Assembly (NCBI RefSeq): GCF_030684675.1
Contig: NZ_JAUXXZ010000052.1
Coordinates: forward strand, 1 to 64,000
Direction of reading: 5' to 3'
Source: Daejeonella sp.
GTDB lineage: Bacteria > Bacteroidota > Bacteroidia > Sphingobacteriales > Sphingobacteriaceae
DNA length: 64,000 bases
Position numbers and translations under genes: made by a program. Below the pieces are notes generated by a model. It was not told the DNA's origin. It worked only from the letters and a program-made list of their open reading frames with translations, and made no database searches. Within the stretch, counting starts at the first letter, position 1. The number at the start of each line of letters is the position of its first letter. Positions 48,581-53,509 of the stretch are shown piece after piece.

Positions 48581-50677
48581 CTATAGTTTGATAATATAAG
48601 CAGGCGATTTCTTTAAAACATAAGCAGAAACGTTCAGTTTCGCTGCTTCTGAGAGCCAGGACTTAATCTTATACTCTGAATTGGTCGGGTCTATCAAAAC
48701 TTTCTTAAACTTAACAATAGCATTGATATCTGCTAACTTTTGAACCGGATTATGGCTCAAAACAAGGATATCAACCTTTAATCTTTCACCCGATTCCGGC
48801 AAACTGATTTTTCTGTCCCAACGAAGCACGCGGAACTTACCAAATTGCATAAAATTTGAATCTGACCAGTATGAATCGCCCCTTAATGTACTTTCAATAT
48901 TGAGCAAAGTGATGTCAGAACCTCCCCGACTTTCCAACACCGGTTTAATGGAATAAGAAAAATTTCTGTCTGCGGAGTCAAAATCTGCAAGAACAATACA
49001 TTTACTCCCCTTGGAATAAGCAATGGCAGAATTTTTTCGAAGACTGAAAAATATCAGATCTTCCCTTCTAAAATTTAGAATCCGATCCAGGGAAATGCTC
49101 ATAAATAGAATCATGCTAAAAGTTATTGCTACCCATACAATGATTTTTTGCCTTGATTTTGACCAAAAAACCATCATTAGAATCAACGTGCAAAGTAGAA
49201 AAAGCTGAAATCCACTAAGCCAGATACCCGAAAGACTTGCAAAGGGAAGATTCTCTATCCTGAATAAAATATCATTTGTCAGATTGATTAATCCGCTCAA
49301 AAATTTCCCAAGGGGAATCAACAGGAAACTAAATGGAATGGCCAGAAGCAAAATTCCAGCATACATAATGATTGTTACAGGTAAAACAATAAGCAGATTA
49401 CTGAGCAGAAAATAAAGCGGGAATTGATGGAAATAATATAAACTCAGCGGGAAAGTGGCTAACTGAGCAGCAAGAGAAAGGGCACAATAACTCCAGGCAT
49501 AATCGATAAACTTATTCCTAAAATACAAGCTGTGGTAAAATTTTGGATGGAAATAAACAAGTCCGCAAACAGCAAGGTAGGAAAGCTGAAATCCGACATC
49601 CAAAAGATAATACGGATAATATAAAAGAAGGAAAAATGCAGAGATTGCGATCAAATTATAGGAGTTCTGATTTTTATTCAGCGCTTTCCCGATAAGCACA
49701 AAGCTGATCATTACTGCAGCCCGGCAAACCGGTGATGAAAAACCGCTAATCAGAGAATAAAACCAGATTGCTATAACAATTAACAGGATCCGCACTAAAA
49801 TCAGAACTTTGTTCTTATCCATTGTCCTGAGCAAAAAAGATAATACCAGAAAAACGATACCCACATGCATGCCTGAAACAGAAAGGACATGCATTGTTCC
49901 AGTCTTTGAATAAGTCTCTATGACATCCTTATTCAGGTCTGCCCGGTACCCTAAAATTAGAGTTGAAGCCAACGCTGCCGCATCCTGATCAGGCAGATAA
50001 GTATTGTATTTATTGATCAGCTTCCTTCTTAATGACAAAGCAAATGATATAACAGGATTACCTGCAAAGCCTTTCAACACCCGAAATTGATTCCTTTTAA
50101 CATAAGATTGAAAGTAAATCTGTCGGTTTTCCATAAATAACTTATAATCAAATTCTCCCGGATTGTACGGAGGTTCCAGAGCGTGGTAAACGGCAGGAAT
50201 TAAAATAATTTCTCCATAATCAGGCACAAACTTTCCGATTGAATCTGCTTCCATTGAGATTAATATTTTTCCGCTGCTATGTTTAAGGCTTTGCTTATTA
50301 AATACGCCTATCACTTCCCCCTCAAAACGGAAATTACCAAAGGCTACTTTAGGTTCATTCTGAACCCGGACTAGTAATAGGTCTGCTTTTAAGAGGTTGA
50401 ATCTAAGTGGGTCAAACCGCTCTGACTTATATACTGTAAGGCTAAAACAGAGAATATAAAGGAAAGCATGAATAATCAAACCGAAAATCCAGGCCCGTCT
50501 GAAAAGGGAGAAACGTTTATATCCCAATAGTAAGGACAGGAAAATACATAGGATAAAAAGACAGAACTCAACTCCCCATTCAATCAGGAAAGAATGTGCA
50601 AGAAATCTTCCGGAAATTATCCCCAGTATCATCGGAATTAGTAAACGAACAAATGGCACCTCTCCCTTGTAGAACAT
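48581..50677 (-). CDS. comEC: ComEC/Rec2-family DNA uptake channel protein
   Basis: 698 residues. An N-terminal DUF4131-like region with membrane helices and an OB-like domain (RVQNEPKVAFGNFRFEGEVIGVF) precedes the competence domain of many helices with the hallmark HVLSVSGMHVGIVF and SGFSSPVCRAAVMI. The C-terminal 170 residues correspond in place to the metallo-beta-lactamase domain of longer ComEC proteins, but the HxHxDH metal motif is missing (only ILVLSHNPVQ remains), so nuclease activity is unlikely. The protein should carry single-stranded DNA across the inner membrane. It is encoded 2 nt after a ComEA-like helix-hairpin-helix protein. Confidence 0.92.
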   Translation of the reverse strand: MFYKGEVPFVRLLIPMILGIISGRFLAHSFLIEWGVEFCLFILCIFLSLLLGYKRFSLFRRAWIFGLIIHAFLYILCFSLTVYKSERFDPLRFNLLKADLLLVRVQNEPKVAFGNFRFEGEVIGVFNKQSLKHSSGKILISMEADSIGKFVPDYGEIILIPAVYHALEPPYNPGEFDYKLFMENRQIYFQSYVKRNQFRVLKGFAGNPVISFALSLRRKLINKYNTYLPDQDAAALASTLILGYRADLNKDVIETYSKTGTMHVLSVSGMHVGIVFLVLSFLLRTMDKNKVLILVRILLIVIAIWFYSLISGFSSPVCRAAVMISFVLIGKALNKNQNSYNLIAISAFFLLLYYPYYLLDVGFQLSYLAVCGLVYFHPKFYHSLYFRNKFIDYAWSYCALSLAAQLATFPLSLYYFHQFPLYFLLSNLLIVLPVTIIMYAGILLLAIPFSFLLIPLGKFLSGLINLTNDILFRIENLPFASLSGIWLSGFQLFLLCTLILMMVFWSKSRQKIIVWVAITFSMILFMSISLDRILNFRREDLIFFSLRKNSAIAYSKGSKCIVLADFDSADRNFSYSIKPVLESRGGSDITLLNIESTLRGDSYWSDSNFMQFGKFRVLRWDRKISLPESGERLKVDILVLSHNPVQKLADINAIVKFKKVLIDPTNSEYKIKSWLSEAAKLNVSAYVLKKSPAYIIKL

Positions 50678-50679
50678 AA

Positions 50680-52725
50680 TCAGAACTGAAAACGCAACTG
50701 TAATCTTATATCTGAACGTTTATTGCCATTAATCAGGTCCCCTCCAGTTCCAATCGTTTCCTGATTGGCATAACTTATCAAAGCATAGCGTAACCACAGG
50801 TCGGTTCCGCGTGATATGGAATATCTGCCATTGACATAAAACCTGACCCCTTTCCCCTGATAAGCCGGTACAGAATATGAATACAAAACATCATTTTCGT
50901 AAGAATAGATCCTTGTATTGAACCCTGAAGTCTCAAAAATTGCAAAGCGAATATTACCTGAAATTTTCGAACCCATAGGGTCGTAAATGATATCCTGGAA
51001 ACTCAAAAAACCAAATTCAGGATTCAGATTACCCTTGCGATAACGAACAATTTCCGCACGGTTTCTGATAGAAAAATCATTGCTGATCTTATAGGTCATT
51101 TCGACCCTTAAATTCTGCTTATCTACAATGTCCAATCCTGGTCCGGAATCTTCAGTGTTCTCCTCCCTGATCTGTTGCCTGAATCTGCCAATAAGCTTAA
51201 ACAGCTTTCCGGGTGTATAAGTGATTTGCCCAAAGAGTTCATAACCAGAAGAGGGACCATCAACCCGGAATTTCAACCATGGGAAGCTGAAAAAATCTGA
51301 ATAGGTATAAAGTTCCCATTGCCGGTTAAACTTAATTGCAAGGCCTGAATAAAATCCACGTTCGTTAACAGCATTCGATGCTTCTGCCAGACCCTGATTA
51401 AAAAAAGAATGATAATTTTTTTCGTAGTTCCGATAGAGCAGTACCAAAGAGACAGGCGGAGCTAAGCTGCTTATGAGTCCATTTAAAATCGCAAAACCGG
51501 AATTCAGACTATGAGCTGCCTCTCCAAAAATATAGGAATTCTTAAATGTGTAACTATAATTCAGGCTTACATTGTGTAGGCTGGCACCCTTGAAATTATA
51601 TTGCTGATAAAGCGACTTCCCTTCTGCAAACGGAATACTGAATTGGGTACGATAAGCAGTTATTCCTGCACTCAAATCCCCTGTAATATATTGAGCATTA
51701 GCACCATAAACGCGTTGCGAAAGAGCATTCTTATTAAGAATTTCGGTTTTGGTACGGTGCAAACCACTTACTTGCATGGAACTGACCTCCAGACTGGATT
51801 CTGCCATGCCGGCATCAATTCTCCTTCCTGAATAAAATGGAGTAAATGAAATTGCTTTTAACCTAAATGTTCCTGCAATCCCGCGCATAAATAAGGATTC
51901 ATTTACTGAACTATAAGGTCTTAATCCAACATCCTGCTTCGCAATTGTACTTAGGTTTGCTCCTTTACCAAATCCTGCTCCGGCCCACATGCTCAATCCC
52001 TGACCAAACTGCAATGCATAATCACCGGCTATTACTTTTCTGATAATCCCATTTCCTCTATATGAAATATTTGCTGAATAAAAATCAAAACCTTTGCCTC
52101 CCTTGCTGAATGATAAAGGCTCTCCGGCATCTTTCTCCATATTAAGCGATGCAAACAATGCATTTGAATAGTTATACCGGTATCTGGTAAACATCCGCAT
52201 TGCTGAACCTAAATAAGTTCCATCAGCAACCAAATTGGATGATGAAAAACCGGATTGTTTCTCTAAAACTTGTCCGAACCTAAACATGAGGTCATGTTCA
52301 GCTTTCATTATGAGCTTGTTAAAAGAAATAAATTTCAACTCTCCGGGTGGCAATACCACAATAAAATTCAAAAGCCAGCGAAGGGTCTGAGGGTCAAAGC
52401 CGGGTACACTTTGTAACTCCAGAACATCTATAAACAGACCATTTTCTTCCCTATGACTGAGTATGGACTTGACCTGAACTGGTGAAATAAAGAATAACTC
52501 CTGTAATTGATCTTTACTGGCAAGATTAATATTGAGAGGCGATCTCCTGTAATGATTCAAACGTTCCGCAATTTCTGAATAATCATGATCTTCAGAAAGT
52601 TCAGGAGCCATTGATTCCAGTATCTGTTCAATCAGAACATCATTCTGAACCTGCGAATAAGTAGTTATGCCGCGGGTTAAGCACAGCAAAAGCAACAGAT
52701 AAATCGTTCTGTAGTCAGAATTCAT
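50680..52725 (-). CDS. ComEA-like helix-hairpin-helix domain fused to a large beta-rich (barrel-like) region
   Basis: 681 residues from Met at 52725, which begins the signal peptide (NSDYRTIYLLLLLCLTRGITTYSQ); an earlier Met has no sense. Residues about 62-122 form a ComEA-type helix-hairpin-helix unit (LNINLASKDQLQELFF, VKSILSHREENGLF, LQSVPGFDPQTLRWL). The remaining 550 residues are beta-rich with alternating aromatic strands, GxGLSMWAG, and end in LQLRFQF, as an outer-membrane barrel would. A periplasmic DNA-binding domain on an outer-membrane barrel, next to comEC, fits a DNA uptake role. Overlaps the upstream PorV-like gene by 11 nt. Function inferred. Confidence 0.82.
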   Translation of the reverse strand: MNSDYRTIYLLLLLCLTRGITTYSQVQNDVLIEQILESMAPELSEDHDYSEIAERLNHYRRSPLNINLASKDQLQELFFISPVQVKSILSHREENGLFIDVLELQSVPGFDPQTLRWLLNFIVVLPPGELKFISFNKLIMKAEHDLMFRFGQVLEKQSGFSSSNLVADGTYLGSAMRMFTRYRYNYSNALFASLNMEKDAGEPLSFSKGGKGFDFYSANISYRGNGIIRKVIAGDYALQFGQGLSMWAGAGFGKGANLSTIAKQDVGLRPYSSVNESLFMRGIAGTFRLKAISFTPFYSGRRIDAGMAESSLEVSSMQVSGLHRTKTEILNKNALSQRVYGANAQYITGDLSAGITAYRTQFSIPFAEGKSLYQQYNFKGASLHNVSLNYSYTFKNSYIFGEAAHSLNSGFAILNGLISSLAPPVSLVLLYRNYEKNYHSFFNQGLAEASNAVNERGFYSGLAIKFNRQWELYTYSDFFSFPWLKFRVDGPSSGYELFGQITYTPGKLFKLIGRFRQQIREENTEDSGPGLDIVDKQNLRVEMTYKISNDFSIRNRAEIVRYRKGNLNPEFGFLSFQDIIYDPMGSKISGNIRFAIFETSGFNTRIYSYENDVLYSYSVPAYQGKGVRFYVNGRYSISRGTDLWLRYALISYANQETIGTGGDLINGNKRSDIRLQLRFQF

Positions 52726-53509
52726 AATTGAATGATAAATTTGGAGAATACCCAAGTCTGGGGTGTGATGATACAGCTGCATCCAGAGAAAACCTCCTGT
52801 ATTTTAATCCAAAGCCCCCAGTCTGCTTAAATGGATTAGCACTTAATCCGCCACGTAAATAAAAGCGCTTAATAATTTGATACTCAATACCCATCTTGAT
52901 ATTCATCCCGAAATCAAGCATCTTATTTAAATCGCTTATAAACAATAACTTATCGCTTACCAGGTATGCAAGACCCACAGAAATTCCGGAAAGGATATGA
53001 GAGCCTGAAAGTTCATTAATCCTGCTCCTTCCAGGGTTATAGATATAACTTCCCAAACGGATCCTATCGTTCAGGCTATATTGCATACCCGCATCCACAC
53101 TAATTGCATTTCCGGTACCATAAACAGGTATGCTGACCTGATGATATTTAAGTCCAAGTGAAATCGAAAGGTCAGCAGAAAAACTTCTGGAAAGGGCAAT
53201 CCCTGTAGTTTGTTCCAGGTATTCAGTGATGCCATAGCGTTGAAAACTAAGCCCCAAAACATGTTTCTTAACAGGTAATCCCAAAACTGCACTTTGAGTA
53301 CTTAGCTCAGGGTCCAAATAATGCTGTTCATATCCCAATGCAAATATTGCGCGTTCAATACTTGCAGCACCAGCACTATTTTGCTGTAATGACCATACAT
53401 CCTGTAATGCCGTACCAGCTGAGCCCATTGCTTTAGATCGGGATCCCAGGTTGTTTTGAGCATGTAATGAATGTTGGAATAAAATACAGATCAGGCAGAT
53501 GTATTTCAT
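52715..53509 (-). CDS. PorV/PorQ-like outer-membrane barrel protein
   Basis: 264 residues. Signal peptide (1-17, SLHAQ), then the family start NNLGSRSKAMGSAGTALQDVWSLQQNSAGAASI, followed by repeated short beta strands and a terminal aromatic residue (LSFNYEF). PorV and PorQ are barrels tied to the type IX secretion system, but small PorV-like proteins are numerous in Bacteroidetes and this one lacks T9SS neighbours. It is the first gene of the cassette with the helix-hairpin-helix barrel protein and ComEC, so it may be an accessory of that outer-membrane assembly. Confidence 0.75.
   Translation of the reverse strand: MKYICLICILFQHSLHAQNNLGSRSKAMGSAGTALQDVWSLQQNSAGAASIERAIFALGYEQHYLDPELSTQSAVLGLPVKKHVLGLSFQRYGITEYLEQTTGIALSRSFSADLSISLGLKYHQVSIPVYGTGNAISVDAGMQYSLNDRIRLGSYIYNPGRSRINELSGSHILSGISVGLAYLVSDKLLFISDLNKMLDFGMNIKMGIEYQIIKRFYLRGGLSANPFKQTGGFGLKYRRFSLDAAVSSHPRLGYSPNLSFNYEF

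Follow-up and report, generated by a model that had tools for sequence, protein, structure and literature searches.

A predicted helix-hairpin-helix barrel protein encoded beside comEC in Daejeonella: a possible secretin-free route for DNA across the outer membrane of Bacteroidota

Known systems and the P-B-comEC locus

How Bacteroidota without a type IV pilus bring DNA across their outer membrane is the question addressed here. The closest described system is that of Riemerella anatipestifer, a pathogen of ducks. There, two adjacent genes (RA0C_RS04915/RA0C_RS04920) encode a barrel with a carboxypeptidase-regulatory domain and a protein with DUF5689. Both are essential for transformation, as is a helix-hairpin-helix (HHH) protein similar to the 309-residue protein described below (PMC8459023). 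In Porphyromonas gingivalis, the 'ComEA' protein PGN_0421 is essential for competence, and the passage of DNA across the outer membrane is regarded by the authors of that study as an open question (PMC11532111). PGN_0421 is a Bacteroidota HHH protein, assigned to the periplasm by analogy, and may belong to either of the two HHH protein types discussed here.

The window, i.e. the whole analyzed stretch of 64,000 nucleotides from Daejeonella sp., encodes on its minus strand, to which all coordinates given here refer, the genes P, B and comEC in this order. P (52715..53509) is assigned by profile and neighbourhood to the PorV/PorQ family and has 264 amino acids, including a signal peptide, with the C-terminus NYEF. 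The HHH-barrel protein B (50680..52725; 681 amino acids) is defined by its open reading frame, its relatives and a structural model. The first ATG of its open frame is located at 52782, and the start at 52725 was picked from the relatives. The closest record belongs to a Sphingobacteriales MAG, with 93% identity in B, and Daejeonella comes next. C, which is ComEC, comprises 698 amino acids (48581..50677). The three-gene cassette that the preliminary description had proposed is real, with an overlap of 11 nt between P and B, a distance of 2 nt between B and comEC, and confirmed reading frames and domains.

There are similarities as well as differences between P-B and the Riemerella pair. Both consist of outer-membrane proteins, do without a secretin, occur alongside ComEC and a separate protein with three HHH units (3xHHH protein), and replace each other across genomes. 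However, homology between the Riemerella pair and B was not detected, and neither CarboxypepD_reg nor plug is matched by B. Moreover, B carries a fused HHH domain and has a PorV-like partner, whereas the partner of the Riemerella barrel is a DUF5689 protein.

P also resembles the PorV and PorQ proteins of type IX secretion, although its partner is B, which does not track the type IX marker SprA. It matches the PorV_fam profile NF033709 over most of its length (E 5.6e-12), but with 45.9 bits, where the cut-off is 90, and it scores 13.7 bits against the PorV equivalog with its cut-off of 250, so that neither type IX PorV cut-off is reached. A sequence search found no solved structural relative of P. 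P is probably a small outer-membrane barrel and the partner of B.

Predicted structure of B, its HHH domain and ComEC

The model of B built from an alignment of 72 sequences (pLDDT 90.2, pTM 0.87) replaces an earlier one of fair quality based on 15 sequences (pLDDT 70). It starts with a signal peptide and helices; the HHH domain comes next, and then 24 strands assigned by DSSP over residues 143-680 (50686..52299; C-terminus QLRFQF). What had been described as a beta-rich region of 550 residues is a 24-stranded barrel according to the structure prediction of the 681-residue protein. The signal peptide, read from the sequence, comprises residues 1-25 (52651..52725) and ends with TYSQ; it contains a hydrophobic helix (residues 5-21), and Q25 is invariant in the alignment of 15 close relatives. 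By a manual count from the strand list, the connections have a mean length of about 17 residues after odd strands and of about 3 after even ones. Since long and short loops alternate and both ends of the predicted barrel would be periplasmic, the N-terminal HHH domain is placed in the periplasm by the model.

The top match of the model in Foldseek is a chain of the Mtr complex that we take to be MtrB (E 2.5e-12, TM about 0.4). In the VIA comparison, the best match is the alginate exporter AlgE (Z 16.5 over 279 residues), and lower scores were obtained for porins and pilus ushers; the usher FimD aligns over 372 residues (Z 14.8, rmsd 3.9). The fold matches of the predicted structure are outer-membrane barrels, and the 24-stranded ushers (FimD/PapC), AlgE and MtrB are large barrels of this kind, as is predicted for B. 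However, the identity of B to them is only 7-12%, and usher domains were not detected in B. Apart from HHH_3, B has no Pfam domain above cut-off, and the barrel family is absent from Pfam. At the level of sequence profiles, a plug is likewise missing among the families matched by the 72 B members at E 0.01. We also considered the net charge of the barrel (+15 for B itself, mean +15) as a sign of a path for polyanions and dropped it, since the last 500 residues of other proteins range from -9 to +13. A description of an HHH-barrel protein was not found in the literature searched, which was mostly open-access. B represents a real and widespread barrel family without a Pfam name.

The HHH domain of B (HHH_3, E 2.6e-12, residues 63-121, 52363..52539) is present in 70 of the 72 B members, including the protein of the window. 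B and ComEA (ComE operon protein 1, 8dss/8dfk) share a (HhH)2 domain of the HHH_3/ComEA type (E 3e-13 with the family profile). However, ComEA is a small, anchored or periplasmic protein whose glycine hairpins (GxG) contact the DNA backbone, whereas the domain of B sits on a predicted barrel and the GxG is lost from its hairpin 1. The two hairpins of B read FFISPVQV and PGFDPQTL, with the glycines mostly replaced: glycine is found at positions 79, 81, 109 and 111 in 7, 3, 42 and 7 of the 72 members, and at both positions of the hairpin 1 GxG in none of them. The charge of the domain is nearly neutral (-1 in B itself, mean -1.9), while the 3xHHH protein has a charge of +10 in its periplasmic part. 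Given the lost hairpin glycines and the near-neutral charge, the label 'DNA-binding' is doubtful for this domain, and the idea of a canonical DNA-binding HHH in B is weakened. The preliminary description had suggested a DNA-binding domain fixed to a barrel; the barrel, as a prediction, and the periplasmic HHH domain fused to it are supported, but the simple picture is probably wrong in detail.

The separate 3xHHH protein is also encoded in the window genome. It has 309 residues, a hydrophobic stretch at the N-terminus and HHH units, of which visual inspection gives three and Pfam two. All 85 sampled genomes of the class encode relatives of this protein, regardless of whether B, the DUF5689 pair or neither of them is present. 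It is likelier that this membrane-anchored protein, rather than B, is the counterpart of ComEA.

ComEC of the window contains an N-terminal DUF4131 (residues 38-196, E 2e-20) and a Competence domain (residues 240-507, E 5.4e-57), the sole Competence match in its genome. A Pfam Lactamase_B match was not found in it, and the HxHxDH nuclease motif occurs in none of 73 ComEC proteins of close relatives. The C-terminal region (48584..49090), which is where the metallo-beta-lactamase domain would lie and in which the nuclease motif was not found, resembles by eye a remnant of such a domain. The domain is optional among ComEC proteins, some of which are known to lack it (PMC6299819). In seven of eight loci with longer flanks (L332, L334-L339), the barrel-DUF5689 pair is adjoined by a gene of the Exo_endo_phos_3 nuclease family. 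The product of this gene is a candidate stand-in for the strand-degrading nuclease missing from ComEC.

Gene linkage, distribution and exclusion

Among the 80 nearest named relatives, mostly labelled as Sphingobacteriaceae genera, comEC follows B within 350 nt in 77; the three exceptions are one contig end and two Parapedobacter. P precedes B in 72 of them, and the remaining eight are Pedobacter (L093, L104-L107, L112-L114). This degree of conservation argues that the tight packing of the cassette is not due to chance. At two further loci, L030 and L031, B opens with a signal-peptide-like start similar to the one of P, which looks like an in-frame deletion of P.

Of 40 diverse loci from other families, 25 have P as the first or second gene from B, a count that may miss a few P proteins too diverged for the model, and P precedes B in all eight further loci of the family f2, which is possibly Chitinophagaceae. 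In contrast, comEC was found near B in none of the 40 loci of other families (5 kb flanks). P-B is a wide unit, whereas the linkage of B to comEC is a feature of one family, the Sphingobacteriaceae. The separation of comEC from B in most relatives, which the preliminary description had named as an argument against its reading, is found in part, namely in the other families, yet P-B persists there as the wider unit.

At 18 of the 40 distant loci (L159, L164, L167 and others), a gene of one and the same cluster lies on the strand opposite to P, mostly two genes upstream of B. Two genes of this divergent cluster were tested and both are PorD (DUF4835, NF052317). At two loci of the family f17 (L181, L183), B adjoins scpB and a pseudouridine synthase-like gene, and P is absent.

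An alignment-based search (E 0.001) found B matches in 262 of 345 sampled genomes of the phylum Bacteroidota, some of them by the HHH domain alone; within the order, B occurs in 106 of 151 genomes. It was not found in any listed genome of the genus g4, taken without proof to be Sphingobacterium. The match is weak, for instance, in G003, G006 and G007, where it probably reflects the HHH domain of another protein; these three g4 genomes possess neither a full B nor DUF5689 but a 3xHHH protein. In the family f17, nearly all sampled genomes carry B. The best PDB match of ScpB from f17 is 1t6s, presumably a Chlorobium tepidum protein. On this basis, f17 is probably Chlorobiaceae. C. tepidum has been transformed naturally in the laboratory (PMC3842273), which is an argument at the level of the family, in whose sampled genomes B is seen.

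B and the Riemerella-type pair, scored by strong DUF5689 matches with thresholds set after viewing the bimodal E-values, nearly exclude each other. We took these matches as the pair because most of 30 loci have a large barrel gene ahead of the DUF5689 gene, with a CarboxypepD_reg-like domain in two of four longer loci tested. Within f2 (149 genomes), 60 genomes have B and 67 the pair: both occur in 3, B only in 57, the pair only in 64 and neither in 25. When one genome per genus is considered, both are present in 3 of 102. The class sample (85 genomes) contains 32 genomes with B and 54 with the pair, i.e. 6 with both, 26 with B only, 48 with the pair only and 5 with neither. Fisher's test yields p 1e-17 and 6e-11, with ancestry ignored. 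When B is mapped onto a 3xHHH protein tree covering 76 genomes, four changes of its state are seen. In independent pairs of genomes differing in B, DUF5689 is opposite or unchanged and never changes in the same way, although these are only two to four pairs and carry no significance. Much of the exclusion is due to shared ancestry, with about four switches visible on the tree. Nevertheless, the anti-correlation is the strongest functional hint we have; it is suggestive and not a proof.

Proposed role of the P-B unit

We lean, by a modest margin over even chances, towards P-B being an alternative, secretin-free outer-membrane entry route for DNA in Bacteroidota without pili. The secretin-free entry suggested by the preliminary description gains support from the near exclusion with the Riemerella pair and from the genome of the window (98.97% complete, positive controls included), in which neither the secretin (PF00263) nor the T2SSE/PilB/PilT ATPase (PF00437) has a match. 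This search covered the window genome only, and B occurs also in other classes. The predicted barrel topology with its matches to outer-membrane barrels, the packing of P, B and comEC, the presence of the 3xHHH protein in every genome of the class, the independence from SprA and the f17 carriers also speak for a DNA route.

Less probable, and on balance unlikely, although it deserves serious attention, is that P-B moves a polysaccharide, a lipid or a protein. The vicinity of comEC in Sphingobacteriaceae would then be accidental, and the HHH domain would serve protein-protein contacts, like the one in the GspK pseudopilin. This would agree with the distance between B and comEC at all 40 diverse loci outside the family, with the lost hairpin glycines and near-neutral charge of the HHH domain, with weak T2SSK matches in 15 of the 72 B members, and with an alginate exporter leading the VIA matches ahead of porins and pilus ushers. 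What speaks against it is the near exclusion with a pair without which transformation fails, the tight packing of B and comEC kept within one family, and the ComEA-like sequence of the HHH domain.

Far less probable is that B exports DNA or holds it at the surface (release of extracellular DNA, biofilm), or imports it as food only, unlinked to transformation. A large barrel beside ComEC fits DNA traffic in either direction, but ComEC is an importer, and the Riemerella pair that excludes B is needed for transformation proper (PMC8459023).

The least probable reading, an accessory role of P-B in type IX secretion, to which the PorV_fam match of P and the neighbouring PorD genes might point, is ruled out as the main one by the double dissociation of B from SprA (52 genomes of the class have SprA without B, 3 have B without SprA, and the listed SprA-less f17 genomes carry B), which means that B does not follow SprA, and P remains below the PorV_fam cut-off and far below that of the PorV equivalog.

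If P-B is a DNA entry route, extracellular DNA would enter through the lumen of the predicted 24-stranded barrel, which may be gated by the conserved long third loop, and the PorV-like P would assist B in this step. The periplasmic HHH domain of B might pass the DNA on; a docking or structural function is more likely for this domain than the canonical binding by hairpins. The membrane-anchored 3xHHH protein would receive the DNA as a ComEA-type binder or ratchet, and a single strand would cross the inner membrane via ComEC. As the nuclease motif of ComEC is missing, the other strand would be degraded by another nuclease. Here we infer DNA as the cargo, the order of the steps and the energy source, while the barrel and its topology (as predictions), the gene linkage, the missing pilus parts of the window genome and the distribution were computed.

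Some observations do not fit easily with a DNA route. Both systems coexist in three f2 genomes and six genomes of the class, and some genomes possess neither; P is absent beside B in eight of the 80 named relatives, and comEC lies apart from B outside the Sphingobacteriaceae. Furthermore, no energy source is visible at P-B. The case for DNA entry, which draws on the predicted structure, the gene linkage within one family and the anti-correlation with a proven system, is nonetheless credible.

In a wider sense, B might belong to a so far unrecognised family of DNA entry channels, a proposal that we regard as tentative and hold a little below even chances. Such a channel would consist of a 24-stranded barrel, to which a periplasmic HHH domain is fused, together with its PorV-like partner. 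It would be distributed over most Bacteroidota in the wide sense, would need no pilus, secretin or TonB-type receptor, and would have been exchanged in evolution with the Riemerella-type pair. If B is indeed a channel, a protein that can now be named by its HHH domain only could be annotated as a transport protein across many genomes, and two exchangeable entry routes would lead into one inner machinery in the phylum.
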